Source: Shimia sp.
Lineage (GTDB): Bacteria > Pseudomonadota > Alphaproteobacteria > Rhodobacterales > Rhodobacteraceae
Assembly (NCBI GenBank): GCA_024224295.1
Contig: JAAENN010000145.1
Coordinates: 1 to 64,000 of the forward strand
Direction: 5' to 3'
DNA length: 64,000 nt
A program made the translations under genes and the position numbers. Positions 2,323 through 63,734 of this stretch are shown here, piece by piece (the stretch's first letter is position 1; the number at the start of each line of letters is the position of its first letter). The notes beneath the pieces were generated by a model. The model was not told the origin of the DNA. It ran no database searches and saw nothing but the letters and a program-made list of their open reading frames with translations.

Positions 2323-2341
<19 letters not shown>
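1913..2341 (+). CDS. nrdI: Flavodoxin-like protein NrdI
   Basis: A 142-residue FMN flavoprotein. NrdI supplies the oxidant for assembling the dimanganese-tyrosyl radical cofactor of NrdF. The phosphate-loop motif [13 protein letters not shown] lies near the N-terminus and the flavin loop [15 protein letters not shown] near residues 90-105, both diagnostic. I choose the GTG at 1913, one base after the nrdH stop; an ATG at 1892 in the same frame would overlap nrdH and add seven residues. It overlaps nrdE by 19 bases, suggesting coupled translation. Confidence 0.93.
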
Positions 2342-5430
<3,089 letters not shown>

Positions 5431-24269: not shown

Positions 24270-25138
24270 GACGGCACCTTCTGAGTTTTGCCGTCGGTCA
24301 GGCGCTCACGCACGACTGAGGAGAGTTGGTCAACGGCGACAATGGTCAGGAAGAGCAAAAGGAAGATCGCCATAGCGTCATCATATTGACCTTTGCCCCA
24401 GCTCATGGCGTTGCGCAGTTCGTACCCAATGCCACCTGCACCAACGAAACCAAGAATGGCAGAGGCACGAATATTGATTTCGAACCGCAATAGCGCGTAG
24501 CTGAAATAGTTTGGCGCCACTTGCGGGATTACGCCAAGCCACATCCGTTGTGACCAGGAAGCCCCCACTGATTGCAACCCTTCAACCGGTTTAAGTGAGG
24601 CATTTTCATTGACCTCAGAGAACAGTTTGCCCAGCGCGCCGGCGGTGTGAAATGCAATCGCGATCATAGCCGGAACGGGGCCACCGCCCATAATGAAGAT
24701 CAGCACCAGCGCAATTACGATCTCCGGCATTGCGCGCATAATGTCCATCACACGGCGAAACAGCGGGATCAGCCGCGGCCATTTCGCCATGCCACGGGTG
24801 GACAGCAGCGAGAACATCATGCCCAGCATCGCACCAATCAATGTGGAGGCGGCCGCAATATTGATGGTCTCCATCAGCGATGGCAGAAATTTCAAAAGGT
24901 TGGCGGGAAGCTCGCCGATCTTTTCAATGGCTTCGCTCAATACCTCTTTGGGAAAGTCGAAGAAGCGGTGCAAGCCGTCCCAGAATCCCCCCGCATTGCG
25001 ATCGTCCGCGATGACGAAGCCTGTAACCATCAATGCGATGAACACCACGAGAATGATGCCATCCATCATCCGTTTGCGTCGGACCTGCGCCATATAATCG
25101 GCGCGGATGTCTCCAACACTTGAAACCTGATCTGTCAT
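24266..25138 (-). CDS. phnE: Phosphonate ABC transporter permease PhnE (first permease)
   Basis: A 290-residue permease. The start at 25138 (MTDQVSSVGDIRADYM) is chosen; the longer frame crosses the terminator hairpin upstream. It has a helix at about residues 27-47, then the transmembrane core and the EAA-like coupling loop ASLKPVEGLQSVGASWSQRMWLGVIPQV, and ends with a helix before DQLSSVVRERL. It heterodimerises with the second permease and works with PhnC and PhnD to import phosphonates. Confidence 0.93.
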   Translation of the reverse strand: MTDQVSSVGDIRADYMAQVRRKRMMDGIILVVFIALMVTGFVIADDRNAGGFWDGLHRFFDFPKEVLSEAIEKIGELPANLLKFLPSLMETINIAAASTLIGAMLGMMFSLLSTRGMAKWPRLIPLFRRVMDIMRAMPEIVIALVLIFIMGGGPVPAMIAIAFHTAGALGKLFSEVNENASLKPVEGLQSVGASWSQRMWLGVIPQVAPNYFSYALLRFEINIRASAILGFVGAGGIGYELRNAMSWGKGQYDDAMAIFLLLFLTIVAVDQLSSVVRERLTDGKTQKVPS

Positions 25139-25154
25139 GACCACCCTTTCGTTC

Positions 25155-25188
25155 AAAAAACAGGCCCCGCGAAAAGGCGGGGCCTGTT
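25155..25188 (-). terminator. Hairpin with T-run between phnD and phnE (attenuator)
   Basis: On the minus strand AACAGGCCCCGC / GCGGGGCCTGTT form a 12-base stem with a six-base loop, followed by TTTT. It stands 20 bases after the phnD stop and inside the operon. Such hairpins after a binding-protein gene commonly reduce read-through, so more binding protein than permease is made. Confidence 0.85.
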
Positions 25189-25207
25189 CATACATCTGTG
25201 GCGATGC

Positions 25208-26110
25208 TTAGTTGGATTTCAGCTTGCGTGCTTCGATGATCACTTCGTAGGCGTCATGGCCAATCGGCATTACGCCTTTCGCCTCGCCGGAGAGAACGCC
25301 ATACGCACAATCCGGGTCGATCGAAGGCATGGAGGCCATCATCGCCGTGAACTTAACCTTCACATCTTCCGGCAGCGCCTTGCGCAGAACAATCGGGCCT
25401 TCCGGGATCGGCTTGGACTGCCAGATCTTCACCAGTTCGTTCATGTCTACGAGACCGGCGTCCACCGCGCGACGCAGCGCGCCGGAATTGTAACCATCTT
25501 CCCATTCGCCGAGACCGTCGGCCCAGGTTACGCCACCATCAAAATCGCCATTGTTCACGCCAACAATGGTCTGCTCGTGGCCACCGGAGAATTTCACTTC
25601 GCCGAAGTAATCGCCGGAAGTCATGGTTGCGCCTGTGGCTTCCGGGATTTCGATAGATGGGATCAGGAAACCGGAAGTTGAGTTCGGATCACCAAAGCCG
25701 AAGGTCTTGCCCTTCATGTCTTCCAGCGTGGCAATACCGCTGTCTTTGCGGGCAAATCCGATGGAATAGTAGCCGTAACCACCATCAACGTTTACCTTCA
25801 CGAGGATCGGCTCAACCGCTTCTGGATCAGACAGGTATGTTTTCGCGTAGCCAGATGCACCCAACCAGGCCATATCGATGGTGCCACCAAGCAGGCCCTG
25901 GATCACGCCGTTGTAATCAGCAGGCGCGAAGAGTTTTGTTGGGACACCCAGAATTTCTTCGGTTTTGGCGCGCAGGCACTCGTTGTTGTTCAGACGGTCC
26001 TGAGCATTTTCACCACCCAGCAGACCGATACGGAACTCGGTGATTTCCTCCGCCATAACCGGTGCGGTCAGCGCTGTGGTTGCCAGTGCGGCAGCAAGCA
26101 AATGTTTCAT
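25208..26110 (-). CDS. phnD: Phosphonate ABC transporter substrate-binding protein PhnD
   Basis: A 300-residue periplasmic binding protein. The start at 26110 gives a signal peptide MKHLLAAALATTALTAPVMA with cleavage before EEITEF. The mature protein shows RIGLLGGENAQDRL, the LGGTIDMAWLGASGYA region, FGFGDPNSTSGFLIPS and VTWADGL, typical of PhnD and related phosphonate/phosphite binders. It delivers the ligand to the PhnE1-PhnE2 permeases. The spacing to phnC is 59 bases and contains a small hairpin (26134-26158). Confidence 0.94.
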   Translation of the reverse strand: MKHLLAAALATTALTAPVMAEEITEFRIGLLGGENAQDRLNNNECLRAKTEEILGVPTKLFAPADYNGVIQGLLGGTIDMAWLGASGYAKTYLSDPEAVEPILVKVNVDGGYGYYSIGFARKDSGIATLEDMKGKTFGFGDPNSTSGFLIPSIEIPEATGATMTSGDYFGEVKFSGGHEQTIVGVNNGDFDGGVTWADGLGEWEDGYNSGALRRAVDAGLVDMNELVKIWQSKPIPEGPIVLRKALPEDVKVKFTAMMASMPSIDPDCAYGVLSGEAKGVMPIGHDAYEVIIEARKLKSN

Positions 26111-26169
26111 CTTTTCTTCTCCAGTTGGTAAATCCCCACGCAGTTCGCTTGTGTGGGGCATGATGAAAG

Positions 26170-27663: not shown

Positions 27664-29946
27664 TTACCCACATTTGCTATAGCCACAGCTGTTGCAGGTC
27701 ATGCAGCCCTCAACCATCTGCAAACCATATTCGCCACAGCTTGGGCACGGCTTGCCGCGTGGCGCACCACCCACTGCCATCACCTCTGCCTGAGGGTCAG
27801 CCTTCAGCCCCATGCCTTCGCCTTCGATGAAGCCAATGGCAATCATGTGGCGTTCCAACACGCCACCAATCGCTGCCAGGATCGACGGAATGTATTTGCC
27901 TTCCATCCAGGCACCACCGCGCGGGTCAAACACCGCTTTCAGCTCTTCAACCACAAAAGAGACATCGCCACCGCGACGGAACACCGCCGAAATCATCCGG
28001 GTCAGCGCCAGCGTCCAGGCGTAGTGCTCCATGTTTTTGGAGTTGATAAACACCTCAAAAGGACGGCGATGGCCATTGATGATCACATCGTTCACGGTCA
28101 GGTAAATCGCATGCTCGCTGTCTGGCCACTTCAGCTTGTAGGTCGCACCCTCAAGGCTCTGCGGACGCTCCAGTGGTTCAGACATGTAAATCACCTCGCC
28201 GCTGTCGGCCACGTGATCCGCCGGCTGCTCACCAGGCGCCTGCTCACTGCTCTCAGACACGGTCAAAACCGAGCCGGTCACATCATTTGGACGGTAGGTC
28301 GTACAACCTTTACAGCCGGTGTCCCACGCCTGCATGTAAACATCTTTGAAGCTCTCAAAATCGATGTCTTCCGGGCAGTTGATGGTTTTGGAAATCGAGC
28401 TGTCGATCCATTTCTGCGCCGCCGCCTGCATGCGCACATGCGCCGCTGGTGCCAAGGTCTGCGCATTCACAAAATAGCTTGGCAGCTCTTTATCGCCAAA
28501 CTTATCACGCCACATTTGCACAGCGTAATCAACAACTTCTTCTTCCGTGCGCGAGCCGTCTTTCTGCAACACCTTCCGGGTGTAAGCGTAGGCAAACACC
28601 GGCTCGATGCCTGAGCTGACGTTGCCCGCATAGAGGCTGATGGTGCCGGTCGGCGCGATGGACGTCAGCAGCGCGTTGCGAATACCGTGCTCTGCAATCG
28701 CCGCCTTAACATCGTCGTCCAAGTCCTGGACCAGCCCGCCGTTGATGTATTTGTCTTTGTCAAAGAGCGGGAAAGCCCCCTTCTCTTTCGCCAGATCCAC
28801 CGAAGCCAGGTAAGATGCGCGCGCAATCGCTTTCATCCAGGCTTCGGTCTGCAAGGCCGCTTCTTCGGTGCCGTACTCCAGACCCAACATCAGCAGAGCA
28901 TCCGCAAGGCCAGTCACACCAAGACCAATCCGACGTTTGGCTTGTGCTTCTTGCGCCTGCGCCTCCAGCGGGAATTTGGACGCATCCACCACATTGTCCA
29001 TCATCCGCACCGCGGTGGCCACCAGATCGGTCAGCGCCTCTTCATTCAGCTCCGCCGCCTTTTCAAACGGATCAGTTACCAGTCGAGCGAGATTGATCGA
29101 CCCCAGCAAACATGCCCCATACGGCGGCAATGGCTGCTCCCCGCATGGGTTGGTCGCTGCAATCTGCTCAACATAGCTGAGGTTGTTGCGTTGGTTGATG
29201 CGGTCGATGAAAATCACGCCGGGCTCGGCATAATCATAAGTGCCCTGCATGATTTTGTTCCAAAGATCACGCGCATCGACGGTGTGATACACTTTACCGC
29301 CAAATTTCAGTTCCCACGGACCATCTGCTTTCACCGCTTCCATAAAGTCATCGGTCACCAGCACGGACATGTTAAACATGCGCAGCCGGGCCGGATCTGA
29401 TTTTGCGGTGATAAAATCTTCCACATCAGGGTGGTCACAACGCATGGTCGCCATCATAGCGCCCCGACGTGATCCCGCAGACATAATGGTGCGGCACATC
29501 GCATCCCACACATCCATAAACGACAGCGGACCAGAGGCATCCGCCGCCACACCCATCACATCCGCGCCGCGCGGACGAATGGTGGAGAAATCATAGCCAA
29601 TGCCGCCGCCCTGTTGCATGGTCAGCGCCGCTTCTTTCAGCATGTCAAAAATGCCGGACATGCTATCGGGCACTGTGCCCATCACAAAGCAGTTGAACAA
29701 AGTCACATTGCGGGCAGTACCTGCGCCAGCCGTGATCCGGCCAGCGGGCAGGTATTTAAAGTCTTCCAGCGCACCGTAAAATTTCTCTTCCCACTTGGCC
29801 GGGTCTTTTTCCACTTTGGCCAGGTCGCGCGCGATTCGGCGCCAGCTGTCTTCCACCGACAAATCAATCGGCGTCCCGTCCGCCTCTTTGAAACGGTATT
29901 TCATGTCCCAGATTTGTTCTGCGATGGGGGCTGCGAAACGACTCAT
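27664..29946 (-). CDS. nrdJ: Vitamin B12-dependent (class II) ribonucleotide reductase NrdJ
   Basis: A 760-residue adenosylcobalamin-dependent reductase of the NrdJ/NrdZ type. It carries FNCFVMGTVPDSMSGIFDML, QQGGGIGYDFSTIRPRGADV, TNPCGEQPLPPYGACLLGSINL with the active-site Cys, and LLTSIAPTGTISLYAGNVSSGIEP. The C-terminal extension ends in a zinc-ribbon-like CPSCG...CMTCNSCGYSKCG that supplies the redox cysteines. It works in air or without it but needs B12. The class Ib operon at 1687 is switched off by B12, so the two systems should alternate. It is preceded by two NrdR-like boxes. Confidence 0.97.
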   Translation of the reverse strand: MSRFAAPIAEQIWDMKYRFKEADGTPIDLSVEDSWRRIARDLAKVEKDPAKWEEKFYGALEDFKYLPAGRITAGAGTARNVTLFNCFVMGTVPDSMSGIFDMLKEAALTMQQGGGIGYDFSTIRPRGADVMGVAADASGPLSFMDVWDAMCRTIMSAGSRRGAMMATMRCDHPDVEDFITAKSDPARLRMFNMSVLVTDDFMEAVKADGPWELKFGGKVYHTVDARDLWNKIMQGTYDYAEPGVIFIDRINQRNNLSYVEQIAATNPCGEQPLPPYGACLLGSINLARLVTDPFEKAAELNEEALTDLVATAVRMMDNVVDASKFPLEAQAQEAQAKRRIGLGVTGLADALLMLGLEYGTEEAALQTEAWMKAIARASYLASVDLAKEKGAFPLFDKDKYINGGLVQDLDDDVKAAIAEHGIRNALLTSIAPTGTISLYAGNVSSGIEPVFAYAYTRKVLQKDGSRTEEEVVDYAVQMWRDKFGDKELPSYFVNAQTLAPAAHVRMQAAAQKWIDSSISKTINCPEDIDFESFKDVYMQAWDTGCKGCTTYRPNDVTGSVLTVSESSEQAPGEQPADHVADSGEVIYMSEPLERPQSLEGATYKLKWPDSEHAIYLTVNDVIINGHRRPFEVFINSKNMEHYAWTLALTRMISAVFRRGGDVSFVVEELKAVFDPRGGAWMEGKYIPSILAAIGGVLERHMIAIGFIEGEGMGLKADPQAEVMAVGGAPRGKPCPSCGEYGLQMVEGCMTCNSCGYSKCG

Positions 29947-54186: not shown

Positions 54187-55506
54187 TTATCTGTCCACCT
54201 TCAATCCGCTTGGAACCCGATCGGGAATCCGGCTGCTTTGCGATTTCGCGGCTGCCCCTGTGAGGCTTTCGAGGAACGCGACCAAAGCTGTAATTTCTGT
54301 GTCTGTGCGCGGGGGAATGAAAATGTCTCGTTGGCCCGCGTGCCGCGCCATTTCGATACGGTCCTGCTGAATCACAAAATCAATGCGACTTAACCATGGT
54401 ACATCGGGTAATGTCAGATCAGCTGCTTTCCATTTGGCGCGCGCACCTGGCGGATCGAGGTGATGTTGGATCATGCGCTCCAGTGTGGGATAGGCGCCAT
54501 TGTGTCCGTAAGGCGCTGTGAGCGCGACGTTTCTGAGCATGGGCGTCCGGAAGCGATAGGCATCCGCAAGGTCATCGGTCTCCCCCATTCGGCCAACGTC
54601 CCGCGCATAGGGGTCAAATCGGCGCGTACGTCCCGGCCCAAACGCAGGCAATCCCAAGGCATGAAACTGTTGATCTGAAAACAAACTTCCCGAATGGCAG
54701 TTGCTACACCCTGCATTGCCAAAAAACAGTTCCATTCCTTGGGTTTGCTCCGCTGACAAGGCCTGATCGTCACCTGCCAAATAGGCATCAAATGGACTGT
54801 CAAAGGACGTGAAGTCCTGCACCATAAAATGCGCCAAGGCGTCCGCAATTTGGACAATCGTCACCTCTTCGGCCGTGCCTATTTCGCTGAATGCGGAGAC
54901 AAAACGGGCACCATAGTCGGGGCGCGTTCTGACCCGTTTCGCAATAATTGGCCACGCGGCATCAATCCGGTCGCGCGTGGCCCCCACAACCTCGTTTTCG
55001 CCAACATTTCCGGCCATCTCAAAACCGGATGTCATTGGGAAAAGTGCCTGTGCGGCCAAAACCGACTCTACTCCATCTGGAAGCCACTCTTCTGCAGGCG
55101 TGTTGAAGCCATTGCCAAAAATCGGGTCCACACTGACACGGCCATCATGCATCAGCGTTTTGATGGAGTGTGCGCCAAGGTTCCATAGCGCAGGCGCATT
55201 GCGCGGAATACGTTTTTGGACCTTGTTTGCGCCCAGTTCGGAGACCCGATCCGGTCCAAGACCATGTCCGCCTTCGCCCAATCCAAGCGACAATCCATCT
55301 GACGTTCCAAATCGCGGATGATGGCAGGTTCCACAGCTGATATTTCTGTTCCCAGACAGGATCTTGTCGTAAAATAGTAGACGTCCCAATTCGGCCTTTG
55401 CGGCGTCCACACCCATGAAGTCACGGACGTTCAGTGGTGTTGGCAACTCAGGCAATTCGGCGAAGGATGGGGCGGCAAACAGGATCACGGAGAGCGTATG
55501 CGACAC
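54187..55506 (-). CDS. Di-haem cytochrome c peroxidase family protein
   Basis: A 439-residue periplasmic peroxidase. I choose the GTG at 55506 (MSHTLSVILFAAPSFA), which gives a short signal peptide; the frame stays open upstream to 56031 but overlaps the opposite gene and lacks conservation. Two c-type haem motifs, CGTCH in NISCGTCHHPRFG and CSNCH in AGCSNCHSGSLF, identify the family, with HDGRVS and APYGHNGAYPTLERM giving distal ligands. It reduces hydrogen peroxide with electrons from cytochrome c. Its 5' end overlaps the divergent SEL1 gene by nine bases. Confidence 0.88.
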   Translation of the reverse strand: MSHTLSVILFAAPSFAELPELPTPLNVRDFMGVDAAKAELGRLLFYDKILSGNRNISCGTCHHPRFGTSDGLSLGLGEGGHGLGPDRVSELGANKVQKRIPRNAPALWNLGAHSIKTLMHDGRVSVDPIFGNGFNTPAEEWLPDGVESVLAAQALFPMTSGFEMAGNVGENEVVGATRDRIDAAWPIIAKRVRTRPDYGARFVSAFSEIGTAEEVTIVQIADALAHFMVQDFTSFDSPFDAYLAGDDQALSAEQTQGMELFFGNAGCSNCHSGSLFSDQQFHALGLPAFGPGRTRRFDPYARDVGRMGETDDLADAYRFRTPMLRNVALTAPYGHNGAYPTLERMIQHHLDPPGARAKWKAADLTLPDVPWLSRIDFVIQQDRIEMARHAGQRDIFIPPRTDTEITALVAFLESLTGAAAKSQSSRIPDRVPSGLKVDR

Positions 55507-55989
55507 CCCACAAAAAAGCTTCTTCTGGCGGCCGCGTTGGTCGTGGGAACGACCCAACTTGGCCTCGCCGAAATTGAAGCCGCGCGCGATCTTATGGAGG
55601 CCGGGGACTTTGAAGCCGCCCGTGAAGCGATGTGGCCCGCGGCCCGTTCCGGCAATGCCGACGCCGAGGAATTGATCGGCGTGATGTATGCGATGGGGCT
55701 CGGTGTCGAGCGTGACGATCAGCGCGCGTTTGAATGGTATCTGCGCAGCGCCATGAAAGGTCACCCCGGCGCGCAATCCGGAATTGGTTGGTACTATGAG
55801 GTCGGGCGCGGCATGCCTTCGCCGGATTTGGTCCGGGCCTATATGTGGTACACTTTGTCGGCGATCGGTGGAGACCCCGACGCGGCGATCAGCCTTGAAG
55901 AGGTTGTGAAGAAAATGACCAAGGATGAAATTGAGAAAGCGCATATTCTGGTCGAGGACTACCGCGTTTGGATGTATCCGTTCCGGTAA
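55498..55989 (+). CDS. Secreted SEL1-repeat (TPR-like) protein
   Basis: A 163-residue exported protein with a signal peptide (MRHPTKKLLLAAALVVGTTQ, about 24 residues). Two SEL1 repeats follow: AARSGNADAEELIGVMYAMGLGVERDDQRAFEWYLRSA and KGHPGAQSGIGWYYEVGRGMPSPDLVRAYMWYTLS. They form a short alpha-solenoid for protein binding. It starts head-to-head with the peroxidase gene, and a terminator follows. It may assist the peroxidase or be unrelated. Confidence 0.85.
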   Translation: MRHPTKKLLLAAALVVGTTQLGLAEIEAARDLMEAGDFEAAREAMWPAARSGNADAEELIGVMYAMGLGVERDDQRAFEWYLRSAMKGHPGAQSGIGWYYEVGRGMPSPDLVRAYMWYTLSAIGGDPDAAISLEEVVKKMTKDEIEKAHILVEDYRVWMYPFR

Positions 55990-56037: not shown

Positions 56038-57096
56038 TTAGTTCAGGTCCGCATCGCGTGCGCCATTCACGTCAGCTTCCGCCGCACCAACGGCGTCGGT
56101 CAACGCGGTGAACACCTCATCGCCACGGGTCACGTTGGACTTGAACCAGTCATAAACCGGCGCAGCGGCCTGTTTGAAAGCGTCCTTTTCCGCTGGAGTC
56201 GGAACATAAAGGTCACCGCCACCTGCAACGAAGTCTTCATAGGCCTGGATCGACTTGCGCTTAGGTGACGCAAAGGTGGCCTGTTGCAGGGCATAGAACC
56301 CATCCACCACAACACGGCGCATGTCTTCTGGCATGTCCATGAACGTCTGGTTTGACATCCACCACAGCGCACCCATGTAGGCGTGGCCATCCAAAGTGAC
56401 ATACTGCAGGCCTGCATCTGGGAACTTCATACCCATGATATCGGTGATGCCGTTTTTGGAGCCTTCAACAACGCCGGTCTGGAAGCTGGTGAACAGTTCC
56501 GGCCATGGGATCGGGGTCGGCGACGCGCCAAGCGCTTTCACAAGCTCTTGCGGCAGGTCGGCCACAACAGTCCGGATCTTCAGACCTTCCATATCGGCAG
56601 GCGCCGCAACACGACGTTTGGTGTTGGCAAAGTTGCGCCAGCCGCCGGTGTTACCGATGGTCATGAGGCGAATTGCATCGCCACTGTCCTCAAGCGCCAT
56701 AGCGCGCATTTTGCGGGTGAAGTCACCTGAGAGCACATGTTCCGCAATGCGGTCATCCGCCATAAGATAGGGCAGATCGAGAACCTGCACATAGGGGAAC
56801 AGACCGGACGCGCCACCAGAGGTCGAGATGTAGACGTCAATAGATCCATCCGCCACGCCTTGCAGGCATTCGGCCCCGTTGGAGCACAGCTGCGTGCCAA
56901 TAAACAACTCCACCTCGATGGCGCCGTTGGATGCGGCCTCGACATAGTTTTTGAAGACAACAAGACCGTCATAGTCCTCGTCGTTTTCATTAGAGTTTGC
57001 TGTTGCACGGATCGTGTAATCGGCCGCACTCGCCGTCAGCGCGGTGCCAGCCATTAAGGCCGACAGTGCCACCGTTTTTGCCAGTTTCATAAACAT
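56038..57096 (-). CDS. TRAP transporter substrate-binding protein DctP
   Basis: A 352-residue periplasmic solute-binding protein. The start at 57096 (MFMKLAKTVALSALM) follows AGGAGGAAACACGC, an excellent ribosome-binding site. A signal peptide of about 25 residues ends ASA. DctP features are GTQLCSNGAECLQGVADGSIDVYIS, DLPYLM, the conserved Arg in MEGLKIRTVVADL, and GASPTPIPWPELFTSFQTGVVEGSKN. It delivers an organic anion to the DctQM permease. The neighbouring SsuD-like monooxygenase suggests a sulfonate or similar acid. It is the last gene of the operon starting at 61817. Confidence 0.9.
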   Translation of the reverse strand: MFMKLAKTVALSALMAGTALTASAADYTIRATANSNENDEDYDGLVVFKNYVEAASNGAIEVELFIGTQLCSNGAECLQGVADGSIDVYISTSGGASGLFPYVQVLDLPYLMADDRIAEHVLSGDFTRKMRAMALEDSGDAIRLMTIGNTGGWRNFANTKRRVAAPADMEGLKIRTVVADLPQELVKALGASPTPIPWPELFTSFQTGVVEGSKNGITDIMGMKFPDAGLQYVTLDGHAYMGALWWMSNQTFMDMPEDMRRVVVDGFYALQQATFASPKRKSIQAYEDFVAGGGDLYVPTPAEKDAFKQAAAPVYDWFKSNVTRGDEVFTALTDAVGAAEADVNGARDADLN

Positions 57097-57131
57097 GCGT
57101 GTTTCCTCCTGTTGCACGTCGTTTTTTGGTA

Positions 57132-58604
57132 TCAGTTCAAGAACCCCGTTAGTTTCGGAATGGTCAGAGAGATTTCGGGTACAAAGGTGATCAGGAAGAT
57201 CACCGCGACCTCAATCGCCAGGAATGGCAAAATGGCTTTTGCGATGGTCGTAACCCGTTCGTTCGACACAGAGGCTGCGACAAACAGCACAAGTCCCATT
57301 GGGGGTGTTGCCAAGCCTACGGTCAGGTTCACGCACATGATGATGGCGAAGTGTACAGACTCAACCCCAAGGCCCTCAAAGACAGGTGCCAAAATGGGGC
57401 CAAGGATGATGATTGCCGGACCTGCGTCCAGAAACATGCCCACCACGAAGAGCAGCAGGTTGATCAGGAACAGCAAGATCAGAGGGTTTTCCGACAGGGT
57501 CAGAATGAACTCGGCCAAAATTTCCGGTGCGTGGCTGAGGCTGACCACCGTTTTGAACGACATGGCCGCACCAACCAACAGCAGTACCACAGCGGACGTG
57601 ATGCCGGCACGGGTGAAAACCTCCGGCAGGTCTTTCAATTTCATGGTCCGCAACACCAAGAACCCGACCAATAGCGCATAGGCAACCGCGACGGCGGCGG
57701 CCTCGGTTGGCGTGAACACACCGGCCAGAATGCCGCCCAGGATCAGGATCGGCGTCTGCAACGGCACCACGGCACGCTTACAGACAATGCGGAATTCCGG
57801 GCTGACCACGCGACGCATCCCCAACATCAGCCCATGCGCCAGCAGCACCGCGCCTAGGAAAGTCAGCCATTTGGACAGCGTAGTGTCAGAAGTAGGTGCA
57901 AATTGCGCCAGCAAAAGACCCAGGTTCAGGCGCACCAACACAAAGGACACCCAGCTTTCCAAACCACCGATTTCTATGTTTTCAAACGTCACACGGCGCG
58001 CGGCGGGCAGGTCGTATTTATCCGCCATAACGCGGACCATAACCATAAGGCCGATGCCAACCAGAACGCCCGGAACGATGCCCGCAAGAAACAACGCGGC
58101 GACGCTTTCACCCATCACATAGGCGTAGATGATCATAATGCCCGATGGTGGAATGATCGGCCCGATGACAGAACTCGCGGCGGTCACGGCTGCAGCAAAT
58201 TTTCGGGTGTAGCCTTCACGCTCCATTGCCGGGATCAACATAGAGCCAAGCGCAGAGGTGTCCGCCACCGCCGAACCAGACAGCCCGGCAAACAGGATTG
58301 ACGACAGGATGTTCACCTGAGCAAGCCCGCCTCGCAAATGGCCCATCAAAGCTTGTGAGAACTCGACCAGACGCACGGTGATCCCACCCCGGTTCATCAG
58401 CTCGCCTGCCAGCATGAAAAACGGGATGGCCATCAAGGGAAAGCTGTCCATGCCATTATAAAGGTTCCGGTACAGCAATGTGATGTCGCGTTCTTGTCCG
58501 TTTAACCACAGCAACGCGCCGGGCGCAGCCAAGAGGCAGAAAAAGACCGGCAGACCAACCAGAAGCAGAAACAGAAACAGCGGAAGGAACCAAATCAGCA
58601 TCAC
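57132..58604 (-). CDS. TRAP transporter large permease DctM
   Basis: A 490-residue membrane protein with about 12 transmembrane helices. It shows PLMAIPFFMLAGELMNRGGITVRLVEFSQALMGHLRGGLAQVNILSS and SAVADTSALGSMLIPAMEREGYTRKFAAAVTAASSVIGPIIPPSG, the hallmark of the large TRAP subunit. The middle (about residues 190-290) has an extra segment with two helices (LLLAQFAPTSDTTLSKWLTFLGAVLL), making it longer than the usual 425-450. It overlaps the DctQ gene by four bases. It couples uptake to the sodium gradient. Confidence 0.92.
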   Translation of the reverse strand: MMLIWFLPLFLFLLLVGLPVFFCLLAAPGALLWLNGQERDITLLYRNLYNGMDSFPLMAIPFFMLAGELMNRGGITVRLVEFSQALMGHLRGGLAQVNILSSILFAGLSGSAVADTSALGSMLIPAMEREGYTRKFAAAVTAASSVIGPIIPPSGIMIIYAYVMGESVAALFLAGIVPGVLVGIGLMVMVRVMADKYDLPAARRVTFENIEIGGLESWVSFVLVRLNLGLLLAQFAPTSDTTLSKWLTFLGAVLLAHGLMLGMRRVVSPEFRIVCKRAVVPLQTPILILGGILAGVFTPTEAAAVAVAYALLVGFLVLRTMKLKDLPEVFTRAGITSAVVLLLVGAAMSFKTVVSLSHAPEILAEFILTLSENPLILLFLINLLLFVVGMFLDAGPAIIILGPILAPVFEGLGVESVHFAIIMCVNLTVGLATPPMGLVLFVAASVSNERVTTIAKAILPFLAIEVAVIFLITFVPEISLTIPKLTGFLN

Positions 58605-59191
58605 TCAGACCCTCCAGCAACCAGGCCAGGACGCGCAGGAAGGCGGTCGCCCCTGCCCATAAGGCGCACAAAACGTTCCAGCAACAGCTCGACGTTCACC
58701 AAGATCAACAGCGCGATACCCACCAGAAGGGACAACATCATCCAACTGCGCGGGATCCGGTACCATTCGTCAAACGTCAGCGAGGTGGGCAGGTACAATG
58801 ACGCGGTGGCGAAACGCCCCCCTAAGCCCGTGACCTCCTTGTAGCCAATCTGCACCCCAACGATCAGCACGGTCAGGCTGATCAACAGCAAGACAAACTG
58901 CAAGAGATGCATCAACTTGCCTTTGATCACCGCATCAATGAAGTCGATCGCCACAAAGCCGCCATTGCGGAACGCTGTGGGCGCCATCAAGCCTGTCATC
59001 CACAACATGAAGAAGCGCGCGGCCTCGTCTGGCCAGGGCAACGCGCTGCCCAGAACATAGCGAAAAAACACTTGGATCAGGATCGCCGCGACCATCACGC
59101 CAATGGCGAATACGCCCAGCCAACGCCCGACTGCCAGCAGTCCGGAGTTAAGTGGACGCAACAGATTCAAGACAGCAAAGACTGCCTTCAT
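58601..59191 (-). CDS. TRAP transporter small permease DctQ
   Basis: A 196-residue small subunit with four transmembrane helices. LPWPDEAARFFMLWMTGLMAPTAFRNGGFVAIDF is the DctQ signature and RIPRSWMMLSLLVGIALLILVNVELLLERF the last helix. It pairs with DctM. It follows the flavin reductase gene by 57 bases on the same strand. Confidence 0.91.
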   Translation of the reverse strand: MKAVFAVLNLLRPLNSGLLAVGRWLGVFAIGVMVAAILIQVFFRYVLGSALPWPDEAARFFMLWMTGLMAPTAFRNGGFVAIDFIDAVIKGKLMHLLQFVLLLISLTVLIVGVQIGYKEVTGLGGRFATASLYLPTSLTFDEWYRIPRSWMMLSLLVGIALLILVNVELLLERFVRLMGRGDRLPARPGLVAGGSE

Positions 59192-59248
59192 CGTGTCTTA
59201 CTCCTCCCATTGCGCATCCTGTCCTCATCAGAATGCAGGCCGCCGCTC

Positions 59249-59776
59249 TTATTGTTTTACGGCAGCAATCTGGCCCATTTGGCCCTTGTAGAAAGTCAAT
59301 GCATCACCGTCTTCGCGCATAGTCGCGCGGTCGACGTGTCCAAGAACAATCGCGTGATCGCCCCCTTCGTAAATCGCGGACCGGGTGCACTCGAAACGTG
59401 CAAGGCAATTGTCCAAAATGGGCACACCCCAGTCGTTCACTTGATGATCCACATTCGCCAGACCAAACGCGTCCTTGGCCACCGTCCAGCACAGATCATC
59501 CTGTTCGGCTGAAAGTACGTGGATCGCATAGTGAGCGGCACGTTCGAAATGCGGAAACCGGCGCGAGTTTTTATCAGGTGACCACAACACCAACGGCGGG
59601 GTCAACGAGACTGAAGAAAAACTATTGGCGGTGATGGCTACGGGACCGTTTTCTGAAGCCGCTGTGACAATTGTCACACCGGTGGCAAACCGGCCAAAAG
59701 CGTCACGCAACAGCCGCGTGTTGTTCGGGTCGGGCACAAAGCTGAGCTTTCCCCCGACAGTGTGGGCAGACATCAT
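59249..59776 (-). CDS. Flavin reductase family protein (RutF/SmoA-like)
   Basis: A 175-residue FMN-binding split-barrel protein of the flavin reductase family. Family marks are LRDAFGRFATGVTIVTAASENGPVAITANSFSSVSLTPPLVLWS, HFERAAHYAIHVLSAEQ and GDHAIVLGHVDRA. It reduces FMN with NAD(P)H for a partner monooxygenase. It overlaps the aldo/keto reductase gene by four bases; the LLM monooxygenase lies one gene further upstream. So the three form the reductase, carbonyl reductase and monooxygenase set of the sulfo-SMO type. Confidence 0.9.
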   Translation of the reverse strand: MMSAHTVGGKLSFVPDPNNTRLLRDAFGRFATGVTIVTAASENGPVAITANSFSSVSLTPPLVLWSPDKNSRRFPHFERAAHYAIHVLSAEQDDLCWTVAKDAFGLANVDHQVNDWGVPILDNCLARFECTRSAIYEGGDHAIVLGHVDRATMREDGDALTFYKGQMGQIAAVKQ

Positions 59777-60663
59777 GGGACCTCCTTGCCGAGTGCGGCT
59801 TCGTAAAGCGAGAACCAGGTTTCGCGATCCAGTTTGACGTTCTCAGCGTCCGAAATCGCCTTGATGCGATCAAGGTTGTTGGTGCCAAGTACCGGCAGAA
59901 TACACGCGGGGTGACGCAGCAGAAACGCAACGGCCACGGCAGCACGATCCACTCCTTGGTCTGCCGCGATCCGGTCCAATCGGTCCGCCACATCCCCTGA
60001 TCCGGTCATCAGACTGCCGCCACCAAGCGGCGACCATGCCATGACCGGATGGTCATGCTGTTGATGAAAGGCCAAATCCCCATTTGTGAAGGGGGACAGT
60101 TCCGCCATCGAAATTTCGATTTGGTTGGTGGCCAAGGGTGTCTTCATAGCCGACTGCAGAAGCTGCCAGTCCCAAGGGCGAAAGTTCGACACGCCCACGG
60201 CTCGCACCTTGCCTGACGCCACCAAATCGTCCAGCGTCGCCGCCGTTTCGTTGTGATCCATCAGAGGGTCAGGACGGTGAATCAACAGAAGGTCTACATG
60301 ATCGACGTTCATCTCTTTCAGAGACCGGTTCACAGAGGCCTCGATATGGGCGCGCGACGTGTCATAGTATTTGACCGGCTTGTCCGAATAGATTCCAATG
60401 GGTGCGACGATATCACATTTCGTCACAATCTCGATCTTATTGCGCAACGCCGGATTTGCTTTTAGCGCGCCACCAAGCACAGCCTCGGCGCCGTAGTCAC
60501 CATAGATATCTGCCTGATCAATGGTGGTGATCCCCTGATCCAGACAGGCTTGAATTTTTGCCTCAACAAAGGCGGGGGACGTATCCGTATCATCGGCCAC
60601 GCGCCACATGCCATACACTAGGCGACTGAAGCTCAGCCCATTTGCGATCTCGACACGATTCAT
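59773..60663 (-). CDS. Aldo/keto reductase (SmoB-like)
   Basis: A 296-residue NADPH-dependent aldo/keto reductase. The tetrad can be placed as Asp and Tyr in TIDQADIYGDYGAE, Lys in VTKCDIVAP and His in LLIHRPDPLMDHNETA; GVSNFRPWDWQLL, MAWSPLGGGSL and VLGTNNLDRI are typical. In the sulfo-SMO pathway of Agrobacterium the AKR SmoB reduces the 6-aldehyde left after SmoC removes sulfite. The overlap of one base with the SsuD-like monooxygenase and four with the flavin reductase supports that reading. Direct substrate is not proven. Confidence 0.88.
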   Translation of the reverse strand: MNRVEIANGLSFSRLVYGMWRVADDTDTSPAFVEAKIQACLDQGITTIDQADIYGDYGAEAVLGGALKANPALRNKIEIVTKCDIVAPIGIYSDKPVKYYDTSRAHIEASVNRSLKEMNVDHVDLLLIHRPDPLMDHNETAATLDDLVASGKVRAVGVSNFRPWDWQLLQSAMKTPLATNQIEISMAELSPFTNGDLAFHQQHDHPVMAWSPLGGGSLMTGSGDVADRLDRIAADQGVDRAAVAVAFLLRHPACILPVLGTNNLDRIKAISDAENVKLDRETWFSLYEAALGKEVP

Positions 60664-61817
60664 CAGCGGCGTTCTCCGATACCAAGGGGGGTAGGGGGCG
60701 TGGATGCTGGCACGCGCCCATAGGCATGTGGCAGCGAGACAGTGTTCAGGTGCGGCATCACGCGGGCACCGAAATGCTTGGCCTCGTCCACATGCGGATA
60801 TCCCGACAAGACAAAAGCCCGCATCCCCATCTTTTGATAGGCTTCAAGCTTAGACAGAACCTGATCTGTTGACCCAACCAGCGCCGCACCACAGCCAGAT
60901 CGTGCCCGGCCCACACCGGTCCACAGATGTGGTTCGATAAAGCCATCGTTGTCGGCCACATCACGGTTCTTTGCCTGATGCGACACACCTAAGGACTTAG
61001 CGTCCAGTGCGCGCTCTCGTATTGCGCGGCCCTGGTCGTCGTCGAGCTTTGACACGATGTAGTCGGCGTATTCACGCGCCTCGGCCTCGGTGTCGCGTAC
61101 AATCACATGCACGCGCAGCCCATAGTCCAACGTGCGACCGTAACGTTCGGCCACCGCGTTCACTGCTTTCATGCGCCCCGCCAGTTCGTCCATCTTCTCC
61201 GGCCACATTAAGTAAACATCGCAATGCTGCCCGCAGAGCTCCAGTGCATCCGGCGAGTAGCCGCCAAAGTACAACAGAGGTCCACCCGTCTGATACGGAA
61301 CCACAGGATCAGTCGTCAGGCCTTGGAAATTGTAGACCTCACCCTTGTGGTTGATCTCGCCTTTGGTCCAAGCCTGCTTCAGAATTTCGACAACTTCACG
61401 CGAGCGCTGGTATCGATAGCCGCTGTCGGCCTTTTCTCCGGGAAAGTCAGACGAGATGATGTTCACCGTCAACCGACCTTCCAACATGTGATCCAAGGTC
61501 GCCAACGTGCGGGCCAGCATAATCGGCTGCATCTCGCCACAGCGCACAGCGGCCAACATGTTGATCTTGTCGGTAATTGGCGCACAGCCCGCCACGAAGC
61601 TTAGTGTATCCTGCCCAACCTGATAAGAAGATGGACACAGGATATTGCGAAATCCCTGCGCTTCGGCCTCTTTCACGATGTTCGAGCAATGCGCCCAAGA
61701 CGACCTCAGATCGCCATCTGGCAAGCCAAGGAACTGGTAATCGTCTGAACACAGCGCGGCAAACCACGAGACTTCTACAGCGTCCAGATCGGCAGATGTC
61801 ACCGGCACGACGGTCAT
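60663..61817 (-). CDS. LLM-class flavin monooxygenase, SsuD/SmoC-like alkanesulfonate monooxygenase
   Basis: A 384-residue FMNH2-dependent monooxygenase of the SsuD family. SsuD active-site positions are conserved: the Arg-x-His pair in GLRVHVIVRDT, the Arg in LWTGVGRARSGCGAALVGS and the Tyr-x-His pair in VLSGYPHVDEAKHFG. The LLM family cleaves the C-S bond of sulfonates to an aldehyde and sulfite. The early Cys of SsuD is seen in ILCPSSYQVG. It is the first gene of the operon and starts 91 bases from a divergent GntR regulator. The combination suggests sulfoquinovose or another sulfonate. Confidence 0.87.
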   Translation of the reverse strand: MTVVPVTSADLDAVEVSWFAALCSDDYQFLGLPDGDLRSSWAHCSNIVKEAEAQGFRNILCPSSYQVGQDTLSFVAGCAPITDKINMLAAVRCGEMQPIMLARTLATLDHMLEGRLTVNIISSDFPGEKADSGYRYQRSREVVEILKQAWTKGEINHKGEVYNFQGLTTDPVVPYQTGGPLLYFGGYSPDALELCGQHCDVYLMWPEKMDELAGRMKAVNAVAERYGRTLDYGLRVHVIVRDTEAEAREYADYIVSKLDDDQGRAIRERALDAKSLGVSHQAKNRDVADNDGFIEPHLWTGVGRARSGCGAALVGSTDQVLSKLEAYQKMGMRAFVLSGYPHVDEAKHFGARVMPHLNTVSLPHAYGRVPASTPPTPLGIGERR

Positions 61818-61867
61818 CGAGTTCCTCCCAAAATCTCGTTTTCCTTACCTCTTGAATAAACTGCGAT

Positions 61868-61881
61868 TTGATGTAGATCAA
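61868..61881. promoter_or_regulatory. Candidate GntR operator
   Basis: TTGATGTAGATCAA is an inverted repeat (TTGAT-n4-ATCAA) in the 91-base divergent region, and a partial copy (TATCAA) follows nine bases later. GntR/HutC proteins bind short palindromes of this kind. Placement between both start codons suits control of both directions. Confidence 0.45.
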
Positions 61882-61908
61882 TGGTGTATCAATTTTGCAG
61901 GTTGACCT

Positions 61909-62619
61909 ATGTCAAATCCAGACCTTTCTAGCTCCGCTTTGCCTCTGTACCTGCAGATCAGCGAAACTCTGATCCGAGAAATCGCAGCTGGCCGTCTGGT
62001 GGACGGCGAGCGCTTGCCGCCCGAGCGAGAACTGGCCAAGCAATACGGAACCACCGTACGTACATTGCGCAAATCCCTCGCAGAGCTTGAGACGCAAGGC
62101 ATGTTGGAACGCGTGCAGGGATCTGGCAACTATGTGCGAGCGACGCAAAGCGGACGCAGCGTCTACTCGATGTTCCGACTGGAGTTACCTGACGGTGGCG
62201 GACTGCCAACTGCAGACATCCTGTCGGTGCATGACATGGAGAAACCGTTCGACCTTCCCGACTTTGGGAGCTCGAATCACGGCACAAGGATTCGCCGACT
62301 GCGCTATCTGGACGAAGTTGTTATCGCGGTCGAAGAGATTTGGCTGGACCGTGACGCTGGCCGGGTGGACCCTGCGAAATTGTCAGAGTCGCTCTATCAC
62401 TACTATCAAAAACAGCTCGGGTTCTGGATCCGCCGTGCCGAAGACCGTGTGTCTGTCGGACGTGTTCCCGACTGGTCCCCCAGCGCCTTTGGACAGGCTT
62501 CCGGTTCAGTTTCCGGCTACATCGAACGCCTGAGCTGGTCGCAAGCCTCCACACCGGTTGAGTTTTCCCGCACGTGGTTTGACCCAGAGAAATCCATCTA
62601 CATCCAACGCCTGACCTAG
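61909..62619 (+). CDS. GntR/HutC-family transcriptional regulator
   Basis: A 236-residue regulator with a winged helix-turn-helix (LPPERELAKQYGTTVRTLRKSLAELETQGMLERVQGSGNYV, about residues 36-78) and a UTRA effector domain (about 85-232, VGRVPDWSPSAFGQASGSVSGYIER, ending FSRTWFDPEKSIYIQ). It is divergent from the monooxygenase operon and upstream of the Gfo/Idh gene, so it likely controls both. UTRA ligands are often sugars, sugar acids or phosphates, compatible with sulfosugar sensing. Confidence 0.9.
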   Translation: MSNPDLSSSALPLYLQISETLIREIAAGRLVDGERLPPERELAKQYGTTVRTLRKSLAELETQGMLERVQGSGNYVRATQSGRSVYSMFRLELPDGGGLPTADILSVHDMEKPFDLPDFGSSNHGTRIRRLRYLDEVVIAVEEIWLDRDAGRVDPAKLSESLYHYYQKQLGFWIRRAEDRVSVGRVPDWSPSAFGQASGSVSGYIERLSWSQASTPVEFSRTWFDPEKSIYIQRLT

Positions 62620-62627
62620 GAGATACT

Positions 62628-63734
62628 ATGACCAAACCCACCACCTATGGGATCATCGGCTGCGGCATGATGGGGCAAGAGCACCTGCGCAACATTGCGC
62701 TTCTGCCGAACACAGTAGTTGCGGCTATCTTTGAACCCAACACTCAGATGCGCACTGAGAGCGCCCGCTTTGCGCCCGATGCGCAGTTTGTCGACAGTCT
62801 TGAAGAGCTGTTGGCCGTGGACGCGTTGGATTGCCTGCTGATCGCCAGCCCGAATTTCTGCCATGTACAGCAACTACAACAGATCGCCGATATCCGCCCG
62901 CTGCCTATTCTTGTTGAAAAGCCACTGTACACAGACCCACAGGACCTGGCCCAAATCAACGAATTCATCGCCAGCTATCCCGCTCCGGCCTGGGTTGCGA
63001 TGGAATACCGCTATATGCCGCCGGTCGCGGCGTTCCTGGAAAACGCAGCAGATGTCACCGGCGGCATTCAGATGCTGACCATCCGCGAACACCGCTTTCC
63101 CTTTCTGGAAAAGGTCGACGACTGGAACCGTTTCAACGTCAAATCCGGCGGGACTTTTGTGGAAAAATGCTGCCACTTCTTTGATCTCATGCGGCTGACG
63201 CTCGGATCAGAGCCGGTCCGCGTGATGGCTTCTGGTGGACAGGACGCCAACCATCTAGACGAAAGTTATGACGGGCAAGTTCCGGATATTCTCGACAATG
63301 GTTATGTTATCGTCGATTTCGAAAACGGCGCCCGTGCGATGCTTGAACTGTGCATGTTCGCAGAAGGCGCTGAATATCAGGAAGAAATCGCCGCTGTCGG
63401 TACCAAAGGCAAAATAGAGGCGCTGGTTCCAGGACCGGGCCGGTTCTGGCCTGAGCATCTCGGGGCCGCCCCAACTCCAAAGCTTATTCTGTCACCGCGC
63501 GTACCCAAAGGTCCGATCGAGAAAGAAATTCCGGTGGACCCTGACATCTTGGAAGCGGGCGACCACAACGGCTCGACCTTTTACCAACACAAGTATTTCC
63601 TGGAACTTGTGCGTGGCCAACGTTCTGGGCCTGAGGTTAGCTTGTCCGACGGAAAGATGGCCGTTCTGATGGGCATCGCTGCACAGGTATCTATACGAGA
63701 TAAGCGTTCAGTGGAAATTTCGGAGCTCAGTTAG
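62628..63734 (+). CDS. Gfo/Idh/MocA-family oxidoreductase
   Basis: A 368-residue NAD(P)-binding protein. The Rossmann motif GIIGCGMMGQEH is at residues 8-19, followed by LIASPNFCH, VEKPLYT (the conserved EKP) and the catalytic-type EKCCHFFDLMRLTL near residue 180, where a His lies in the active site. It is eight bases after the GntR gene. Gfo/Idh/MocA enzymes oxidise sugars or inositols; some use NAD transiently to hydrolyse glycosides (families GH109 and GH188). If the linked operon handles sulfoquinovose, this could be the NAD-dependent sulfoquinovosidase that feeds it. That is inference. Confidence 0.9.
   Translation: MTKPTTYGIIGCGMMGQEHLRNIALLPNTVVAAIFEPNTQMRTESARFAPDAQFVDSLEELLAVDALDCLLIASPNFCHVQQLQQIADIRPLPILVEKPLYTDPQDLAQINEFIASYPAPAWVAMEYRYMPPVAAFLENAADVTGGIQMLTIREHRFPFLEKVDDWNRFNVKSGGTFVEKCCHFFDLMRLTLGSEPVRVMASGGQDANHLDESYDGQVPDILDNGYVIVDFENGARAMLELCMFAEGAEYQEEIAAVGTKGKIEALVPGPGRFWPEHLGAAPTPKLILSPRVPKGPIEKEIPVDPDILEAGDHNGSTFYQHKYFLELVRGQRSGPEVSLSDGKMAVLMGIAAQVSIRDKRSVEISELS

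Follow-up and report, generated by a model that had tools for sequence, protein, structure and literature searches.

The sulfo-SMO pathway of Agrobacterium, with its enzymes SmoABC, was reportedly described by Sharma in 2022, and it works together with an ABC importer and a GH31 sulfoquinovosidase (SQase). The locus described here differs from it in carrying a TRAP transporter and a GH188 enzyme, SqgA. Both have an LLM monooxygenase and an aldo/keto reductase (AKR) of the same groups along with a flavin reductase, the products in Agrobacterium being glucose and sulfite (PMC12890257; this and the other papers are cited from the parts of their text that were available). The same enzymes and the same glycosidase are found in the sulfo-SMO clusters of the Roseobacter clade, of which our locus is a member and in which GH188 SqgA is near-universal (Kaur 2023, PMC10755693). 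The available main text of that paper leaves the importer, the regulator, the repeat protein and the peroxidase without discussion, and its figures may show them. Besides, it places the SqgA of Arthrobacter in a sulfo-EMP cluster and gives the output of sulfoquinovose (SQ) as about ten billion tons a year. SQ itself is a sulfur-containing sugar found in the membranes of plants and algae. The Roseobacter clade is listed among SQ degraders (PMC13372026); in the available literature text, we found no statement on the route by which its members take up SQ. Regarding TRAP transporters, the isethionate receptor IseP has been called the first sulfonate-specific TRAP receptor (PMC11668362).

We analyzed a 64,000-nucleotide stretch of DNA from the marine bacterium Shimia sp. 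(hereafter, the window), in which one locus is probably a sulfolytic SQ cluster of the sulfo-SMO type with a TRAP transporter importing SQ or SQ glycosides. We give this joint reading of enzymes and cargo a probability of roughly 80%. What the data show directly is the gene content, the homology, the active-site and sulfonate-contacting residues kept in SqgA, the conservation of an operator, and a TRAP common to clusters of the sulfo-SMO and sulfo-EMP types. The enzymes themselves had been described before, and the importer recurs in a second, chemically different SQ pathway.

Gene content of the locus

The minus strand codes, from 61817 to 56038, for a SmoC-type monooxygenase, a SmoB-type reductase, a flavin reductase and the TRAP proteins DctQMP, while a GntR gene and a Gfo/Idh/MocA gene are divergent from this smoC operon (Table 1). 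The eight genes belong to the Pfam families Bac_luciferase, Aldo_ket_red, Flavin_Reduct, DctQ, DctM, DctP, GntR with UTRA, and GFO_IDH_MocA. Both the coordinates and the families given in a preliminary description of this DNA were borne out by ORF positions and Pfam, as was its claim that the first three genes overlap in one operon: smoC and smoB share 1 base, and smoB and smoA share 4. Further along, a gap of 57 bases separates smoA from dctQ, dctQ and dctM overlap by 4, and dctM is followed by dctP after 35. The most likely start of DctP is the ATG at 57096, which lies behind AGGAGG, and not the GTG at 57117.

Table 1. Genes and sites of the SQ locus and its flank in the window
Feature	Position	Strand	Basis
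SmoC-type FMNH2-dependent SQ monooxygenase, 384 aa	60663..61817	-	PDB bit scores
SmoB-type aldo/keto reductase, 296 aa, proposed 6-dehydroglucose reductase	59773..60663	-	PDB bit scores
SmoA-type flavin reductase, 175 aa	59249..59776	-	PF01613 and presence at SmoC loci
DctQ, TRAP small permease	58601..59191	-	PF04290
DctM, TRAP large permease	57132..58604	-	PF06808; TIGR00786 over cut-off
DctP, TRAP solute-binding protein, 352 aa, proposed SQ/SQ-glycoside receptor	56038..57096	-	PF03480
GntR/UTRA regulator	61909..62619	+	PF00392 and PF07702
SqgA, predicted GH188 NAD+-dependent sulfoquinovosidase, 368 aa	62628..63734	+	PDB scores and kept residues
Predicted GntR operator ATTGATACACCATTGAT, upstream of smoC	61877..61893	-	Core conservation
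Sel1/TPR-type repeat protein, signal-like N-terminus (labels by eye)	55498..55989	+	Adjoins DctP, conserved
Di-haem cytochrome c peroxidase / MauG-like protein, start approximate	54187..55500	-	Two CXXCH

Enzymes and proposed pathway

By comparison with PDB sequences, the monooxygenase scored 682 and 672 bits with 7olf and 7oh2, which we take to be SmoC (PDB title: sulfonatase/alkanesulfonate monooxygenase), versus 176–183 bits with SsuD-type structures. For the aldo/keto reductase, 7bby and 7bbz, presumably SmoB (PDB title: aryl-alcohol dehydrogenase), gave 410 bits, the second-best PDB match being 217. The flavin reductase matches an NCBIfam FerA-like model below its cut-off (192 bits, cut-off 260), and we label it SmoA from its family, PF01613, and its presence at the locus. 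The same three activities as SmoC, SmoB and SmoA are predicted, the first two by PDB scores and the third by family. In one paper, a sulfo-SMO pathway is called when SmoB and SmoC are both present (PMC13372026, available text); here they lie side by side, together with the flavin reductase.

Regarding the Gfo/Idh/MocA protein, only three PDB sequences passed 1e-100. It is nearer to 8zn9 (530 bits) than to the SqgAs of Flavobacterium (8QC2, 372 bits) or Arthrobacter (8QC3, 359 bits), whereas any other solved Gfo/Idh protein gave at most 61 bits. The earlier proposals that the monooxygenase sides with SmoC and not with SsuD, and that the Gfo/Idh protein is GH188-like, both held in checks run by scores and not by trees with named references. 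In the available text on ArSqgA, the SQ-contacting residues are K107, Y136, E189, H193 and H321, and the sulfonate triad is R166, L170 and K172 (PMC10755693). All eight are kept in the window SqgA (K98, Y127, E179, H183 and H313; triad R156, L160 and K162), a set that leaves out ArSqgA E163, whose mapping is uncertain. The eight are likewise common to the Arthrobacter and Flavobacterium enzymes, and they are complete in the 127/127 SMO-linked and 24/24 EMP-linked SqgAs extracted.

Since SmoC, SmoB and the Gfo/Idh protein each match their SQ counterpart best and the GH188 residues are kept, homology makes the locus a sulfo-SMO cluster whose glycosidase is an SqgA of GH188. The ‘variant route’ of the preliminary description could not be upheld: the enzymes are those already established for sulfo-SMO, and the occurrence of GH188 in such clusters of Roseobacters has been published (PMC10755693, available text). 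One could also argue for an SsuD-like assimilation of alkanesulfonates for sulfur, with the Gfo/Idh protein as a sugar or inositol dehydrogenase. SmoC and SsuD are indeed of one family (235 bits to the NCBIfam SsuD model TIGR03565) and inositol dehydrogenases do occur among Gfo/Idh proteins (TIGR04380, 97 bits), but these values are far below the cut-offs of 518 and 355, the scores with the SmoC and SqgA structures exceed them by several hundred bits, and the GH188 sulfonate triad is present. We ruled out both readings by bit scores and consider them almost certainly wrong.

For the sulfo-SMO reading, we infer each catalytic step in this organism as follows. DctPQM would take in SQ as well as its glycosides, among them sulfoquinovosyl glycerol (SQGro). 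SqgA, in which we saw no signal peptide by eye, would hydrolyze the glycosides in the cytoplasm in an NAD+-dependent manner, and since it looks cytoplasmic, the importer should take the glycoside as well as SQ. Glycoside import bears on the use of SQGro, and not of free SQ alone, by these bacteria. SmoA would provide the FMNH2, SmoC would release sulfite by splitting the C-S bond, and the 6-dehydroglucose left behind would be reduced to glucose by SmoB. The GntR protein would act as the cluster's own repressor, responding to a putative ligand.

Sulfite would be handled outside the cluster, elsewhere in the genome. In agreement with the preliminary description, the window holds no sulfite exporter: TauE-type proteins are absent from the contig, and the eight matches in the genome are all on other contigs. 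A candidate place is contig C255, where one locus contains a SoeABC-like complex, a PF03601 protein and a TauE protein. We also looked for a SorA-type sulfite dehydrogenase through PF00174; of the three matches in the genome, one is MsrP (C137) and two are short.

SmoC loci across the family

In 295 genomes of the family, we collected 124 SmoC loci, the window's own counted and some of them ending at contig ends. Greedy longest-ORF calling did badly on this set, with just 108 SmoC called, and the counts given here come from tblastn with named queries. SmoC was accompanied by GntR at 121 loci, SmoB at 120, SqgA at 115, SmoA at 108 and DctP at 72, a synteny that places the gene arrangement far from chance. 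The TRAP, which stands here in place of an ABC importer, is no oddity: it is the commonest importer found at the family's SmoC loci (72/124). The window's own cluster has no ABC importer (sugar-binding protein, two permeases and MalK-type ATPase). Among the 52 SmoC loci lacking this TRAP, a MalK-type ABC set, one of two types, is complete in 14, and 38, including seven cut short, are without a complete set of either type.

The degenerate core of the predicted operator ATTGATACACCATTGAT was present upstream of SmoC with up to 2 mismatches in 117 of the 124 loci, and exactly in 61, the core being derived from the same loci in which it was counted. It was found in 1 of 24 EMP loci. The 17-base operator is its own sole match in the genome at up to 2 mismatches, with no further site outside the locus, and being single it suggests a dedicated GntR regulator.

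The TRAP transporter and its probable cargo

The TRAP is complete, with DctQ, DctM and DctP all encoded and an R/R/N anion site in the receptor: R154, R175 and N215, kept in 161/161 orthologues extracted, correspond in the alignment to the anion-site residues of 4P47. DctP is only a distant relative of any solved binding protein (139.6 bits to 4P47), and its ligand is not readable by homology. An AlphaFold2 model based on 22 orthologues was of low quality (mean pLDDT 61.7; below 50 over residues 151–241). The conserved arginines would suit any anionic ligand, carboxylate or sulfonate alike. IseP has the same R/R/N site and a sulfonate cargo, as proposed for the window DctP, but it reaches 114 bits with the DctP profile and binds a C2 sulfonate, while our proposal is a C6 sulfosugar or its glycoside (PMC11668362, available text).

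DctP of at least 68% identity was detected in 100 of the 295 family genomes. SmoC is also present in 76 of them, and in 72 of these 76 DctP lies inside the fetched SmoC locus. Plasmid records with DctP of at least 69% identity had SmoC in 10 out of 10 cases. Among the 24 SmoC-less DctP genomes, we fetched the locus in 20 (all but G014, G048, G126 and G201) and found EMP-type genes in 17, one of them in the window's genus. These 17 loci carry SF kinase- and SQ isomerase-type genes, and 16 of them an aldolase-type gene, beside DctQMP and SqgA; the remaining three (L184, L187 and L188) have remnants only. The EMP reading is by family matches, the SQ isomerase scoring 252 bits, below the NCBIfam cut-off of 700. 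At E 1e-20, none of the 124 SmoC loci, the window's included, had a match to SF kinase, SQ isomerase or SFP aldolase. We found no prior description of DctP at 72/124 SmoC loci or of EMP-type genes at 17/20 SmoC-less loci in the literature searched, as far as its text was available. Because the TRAP is common to sulfo-SMO and sulfo-EMP-type clusters, its cargo would most likely be SQ or SQ glycosides. If so, DctP would recognize a sulfosugar as a TRAP receptor, and SQ uptake could be traced by its sequence across two pathways.

We also examined 80 DctP loci from named genomes, which overlap with the family-genome loci, as contigs of identical length (for example, 185078 and 124959) show, so that the counts are not additive. 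They comprise 62 SMO, 7 EMP (called with at least two of the three genes; all three in 3/7) and 11 unassigned loci. A sulfo-EMP cluster is carried, for instance, by Shimia sp. R9_2 (L269). Nine of the latter are on short contigs or near contig ends, with the SmoC end visible in L231 and L260. In the full-length L220 and L243, DctP is accompanied by the repeat protein and the peroxidase, but nothing there matched the SQ queries, and a Pfam scan of 10 of their ORFs revealed no SQ enzyme.

These two loci favor another view, in which the sulfo-SMO assignment of the enzymes holds, yet the cargo of the TRAP is some other anion: a uronate, a dicarboxylate, or a C2–C4 sulfonate (isethionate or DHPS, for example). 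The TRAP would then be a neighbor through a common habitat and not through its function. TRAP binding proteins for uronates exist, and the 52 TRAP-less SmoC loci manage without this importer. Moreover, the anion site of DctP is the general one of TRAP receptors (residues named in PMC11668362, available text). On the other hand, the TRAP adjoins SqgA in 17/17 EMP-type loci, where the desulfonation route is different, and DctP hardly leaves the SmoC locus in genomes having both (72/76). Also, around a more distant DctP (48% identity) on a Pacificitalea plasmid, the 19 kb shown contain no gene annotated for SQ, which argues that the SQ link is particular to the window's DctP clade. We thus consider a different cargo decidedly unlikely.

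Exchange or common descent

In order to build the DctP tree, we removed near-identical rows (161 to 118) and took the first 110; in the other trees, rows were left out when they covered less than 85% (SqgA), 70% (MauG) or 70% (DctM) of the query. The best DctP tree gives 13 SMO/EMP changes, of which the starred branches force 3, and it is weakly resolved. SqgA tracks the pathway in these trees, and DctP does not clearly do so. The sharing of the TRAP could also come from common descent with one pathway replacement instead of repeated exchange, which is compatible with SQ as cargo. DctP is highly conserved, a single EMP clade is borderline in the AU test (p 0.0455), and the EMP changes are only 1 for SqgA and 2 for the peroxidase. 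Against it are the 13 changes of the best tree and the presence of both SMO and EMP clusters within one genus, in Hyphomicrobiales-titled records and in gammaproteobacterial MAGs (Granulosicoccaceae, presumably gammaproteobacteria). We hold common descent to be possible, though the less probable account. As a check on whether the EMP cluster of the second genome of the genus sits at the same chromosomal position, we searched for the quinone oxidoreductase flanking the window's locus; it had no match at E 1e-40 in that genome or in G075, which lends no support to a shared position.

A broader idea is that DctPQM, the repeat protein and the peroxidase form a portable sulfosugar gateway, behind which SMO and EMP cassettes and regulators are swapped, the secreted pair acting periplasmically, in an undescribed step, on SQ glycosides before uptake. 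This is speculative and we regard it as unlikely.

Repeat protein and di-haem peroxidase

The repeat protein and the di-haem peroxidase often accompany DctP. The former has only weak NCBIfam matches (MerG and the AlgK TPR model), and its orthologue in Ruegeria TM1040, which has the same cluster on its megaplasmid, is annotated as a tetratricopeptide repeat protein. It was present in 43 of the 72 SMO TRAP loci and in 71 of the 80 named DctP loci (SMO 54/62, EMP 7/7, unassigned 10/11). Regarding the peroxidase, which has two CXXCH motifs, its 29 PDB matches are all di-haem peroxidases or MauG-type enzymes. Its co-travel with the TRAP offers a lead to an unrecognised step. With a cut at 52% identity or more, chosen after seeing the match list, 80 of the 295 genomes of the family have an orthologue, and DctP is present in 77 of these 80.

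Gene content and enzymes of the cluster

Every gene and family of the cluster proposed in the preliminary description was confirmed, coordinates included. The minus-strand genes overlap or are tightly packed, with gaps of 57 bases ahead of dctQ and 35 ahead of dctP. The assembly measures 4.56 Mb and the contig runs to 64753.

Genes of the sulfoquinovose (SQ) cluster and its flank
Feature	Position	Strand	Remark
Luciferase-like monooxygenase (SmoC-type)	61817-60663	minus	
Aldo/keto reductase (SmoB-type)	60663-59773	minus	
Flavin reductase (SmoA-type)	59776-59249	minus	
DctQ	59191-58601	minus	
DctM	58604-57132	minus	
DctP	57096-56038	minus	
GntR/UTRA regulator	61909-62619	plus	
Gfo/Idh/MocA protein (SqgA)	62628-63734	plus	
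Sel1/TPR-type repeat protein	55498-55989	plus	signal-like start; labelled by eye, NCBIfam matches all weak
Di-haem MauG/cytochrome c peroxidase-like protein	end 54187	minus	two CXXCH; past DctP

By comparison with PDB sequences, the monooxygenase is SmoC-type and not SsuD, as its parallel with SmoC had suggested: it gave 682 and 672 bits to 7olf and 7oh2 over its full length, against 183, 176 and 176 bits to SsuD-type structures. The aldo/keto reductase reached 410 bits to 7bby/7bbz, with the runner-up at 217. Under generic PDB names, 7olf and 7oh2 are SmoC structures and 7bby and 7bbz SmoB structures. The Gfo/Idh protein gave 530 bits to 8zn9, 372 to 8QC2 (FlSqgA) and 359 to 8QC3 (ArSqgA; identities from the consulted part of PMC10755693). 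The same part of that paper names K107, Y136, E189, H193 and H321 as SQ contacts and R166, L170 (backbone) and K172 as the sulfonate triad. The equivalents by alignment are K98, Y127, E179, H183 and H313, and R156, L160 and K162, and all eight are kept in the window protein and in the 127/127 SMO-linked and 24/24 EMP-linked SqgAs extracted. These scores and residues place the protein with GH188, which had been raised as a possibility. We regard the enzymes as almost certainly a genuine sulfo-SMO/GH188 set. SqgA opens straight away with its Rossmann motif and no signal peptide was seen in it by eye; on this reading of the sequence, SQ glycosides should need to cross the inner membrane before cleavage.

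The idea of a variant route did not hold for the enzymes, which are of a published kind in Roseobacters: in the parts consulted, GH188 is near-universal in sulfo-SMO clusters, marine Roseobacters (PMC10755693), and sulfo-SMO is described as widespread among rhizobia and Roseobacter-clade bacteria (PMC13372026). The portions consulted describe SQ uptake via ABC systems (PMC12421959) and term IseP the first sulfonate-specific TRAP receptor (PMC11668362), and among the titles and text passages listed none paired a TRAP importer with SQ. These TRAP genes have likely already appeared in published gene-neighbourhood figures.

Importers of SmoC loci

Using a cut-off of E<=1e-100, we found SmoC in 124 of the 295 family genomes. 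Among the 124 loci examined, the window's own included, the partners were GntR (121), SmoB (120), SqgA (115), SmoA (108) and DctP (72). DctP was missing from 52 loci: 14 of these encode one of two MalK-type ABC systems in full, and the other 38 show neither TRAP nor a complete ABC set (7/38 with <5.5 kb downstream), so TRAP, at 72 against 14, is the commonest importer found there. The closest DctPs in the named collection are those of Rhodobacteraceae bacterium Alg238-R152 (99%), a Rhodobacteraceae MAG (98%) and Aliiroseovarius sp. F20344 (96%); judged by this single gene, the source organism would probably be Aliiroseovarius or a near relative.

Four sulfo-SMO clusters with an ABC importer (L039, L048, L073 and L124) also contain an alpha-amylase-family gene, by PF00128 in L039 and by tblastn matches in the others. 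SmoC-like genes (51-54% identity) lie on plasmids NC_018745.1, NZ_CP089541.1 and NZ_CP089539.1 of Emticicia and Spirosoma, which are Bacteroidota.

The same TRAP system beside sulfo-EMP-type genes

DctP at >=68% identity occurs in 100/295 family genomes, 24 of them without SmoC; two more matches fall at 49-50%. In 17 of the 20 SmoC-less loci examined, the same DctQMP stands beside sulfo-EMP-type genes; the other three (L188, L187 and L184) hold only remnants of the SMO cluster, being without smoC or the whole of smoCBA and retaining TRAP, with SqgA retained in 2/3. The clearest EMP case is G210, the window's only congener among the sampled genomes, whose DctP is 86% identical. Its locus encodes a DeoR regulator, a PfkB kinase, a LacD-type aldolase, an SQ-isomerase-type protein (NF048012, 252 bits, below the cut-off of 700), an SqgA-like protein (52% identical), an aldose epimerase, an aldehyde dehydrogenase, a 2-hydroxyacid dehydrogenase and sulfopyruvate decarboxylase alpha (TIGR03845, above cut-off). 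None of the 124 SmoC loci matched the EMP kinase, aldolase or isomerase (E 1e-20).

The 80 named DctP loci, which take in Roseibium, Maritalea and gammaproteobacterial MAGs, comprise 62 SMO, 7 EMP (defined by two or more of these three genes; all three in 3/7) and 11 unassigned, counts not to be summed with those of the 295 genomes since the two sets overlap, as shown by contigs of equal length such as 185078 and 124959. Nine of the 11 unassigned loci are on short or truncated stretches. The two full-length ones (L220 and L243) keep a TRAP of the SQ type together with the repeat protein and the peroxidase, with no SQ query match nearby and no SQ enzyme among ten ORFs compared with Pfam; they may be orphan gateways or part of a different pathway. 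Among plasmids, 10/11 records matching DctP have SmoC; around the eleventh, whose DctP is only 48% identical, no SQ gene is annotated within 9 kb.

Receptor phylogeny and probable cargo

On the DctP tree (110 rows: 22 EMP, 85 SMO and 3 partial) the EMP label requires 13 changes, of which starred branches force only 3, and constraining EMP to one clade was rejected at the borderline (p-AU 0.0455). On the SqgA tree of the same loci (102 rows, L193 being one long row), a single branch with support 100 splits off EMP, and the peroxidase tree (75 rows) needs 2 changes. Glycosidase and peroxidase thus track the pathway, whereas the receptor has moved from one pathway to the other or, at the least, does not split cleanly along them. 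Of the evidence at hand, this speaks most strongly for a cargo common to SMO and EMP, SQ or its glycosides.

TRAP receptors for uronates exist and SQ resembles a 6-sulfo uronic acid, so by analogy TRAP uptake of SQ would be chemically plausible. R154, R175 and N215 of DctP are present in 161/161 rows and align with the carboxylate-holding residues of 4P47-type receptors; in IseP, the residues aligning with them hold the sulfonate (PMC11668362, part consulted). Marked by its co-occurrence with sulfo-EMP, DctQMP is very probably an importer of SQ or an SQ glycoside. For both parts together, sulfo-SMO/GH188 enzymes and this cargo, we estimate a probability of roughly 0.8.

Genes accompanying the importer

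The repeat protein and peroxidase (54187-55989) accompany the SQ-linked TRAP in SMO and EMP clusters across orders. In the family sample, the peroxidase is in 42/72 and the repeat protein in 43/72 SMO TRAP loci; in the named loci, the figures are 52/62 and 54/62 for SMO, 7/7 each for EMP and 10/11 each for unassigned. DctP occurs in 77 of the 80 family genomes with the peroxidase at >=52% identity, a cut chosen post hoc from the listed matches in related, non-independent genomes. Against a strict tie to TRAP stand the 30/72 TRAP loci without peroxidase in the examined stretch and the 4/52 non-TRAP SmoC loci that have one (51-53% identity). Conceivable functions are protection from peroxide or a periplasmic reaction on the substrate.

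Predicted operator

The smoC-gntR intergenic consensus is aaAATTGATACActATTGAT.tAcatcaa. Its 17-base core 5' of smoC is exact in 61/124 loci and within 2 mismatches in 117/124 (TRAP 69/72, other 48/52), although, the core being derived from these same SmoC loci, the independent counts are only those for EMP loci (1/24 within 2 mismatches) and the whole genome, where the site at 61877-61893 is single at up to 2 mismatches. The window has one site against 0.11 expected when as many as 3 mismatches are allowed. A conserved core that is single in the genome fits a predicted operator serving a dedicated GntR regulator of both arms.

Sulfite fate and other genes of the window

As previously remarked, the window shows no sulfite exporter, and contig C145 as a whole has no TauE gene. 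On another contig of this genome (C255, about 47.6-54.0 kb; L275, L281 and L167), genes for molybdopterin, iron-sulfur and DmsC-type subunits, PF03601 and TauE stand in a row. The molybdopterin and iron-sulfur subunits fall under every NCBIfam cut-off, so 'SoeABC-like' for this molybdenum complex is a reading of gene arrangement; the locus may serve to oxidise and export sulfite. A PF03601-type gene (putative sulfate exporter) lies in the SQ locus in 6/72 TRAP and 3/52 other SmoC loci, and also in the SQ clusters of Ruegeria TM1040 and Rhizobium SL42.

Elsewhere in the window, two different large-subunit ribonucleotide reductases are encoded at 2323-4443 and 27667-29946, with about 23 kb between them, and genes of a phosphonate-type ABC transporter (PF12974 for the binding protein, PF00528 for the permease) lie at 22947-26161.
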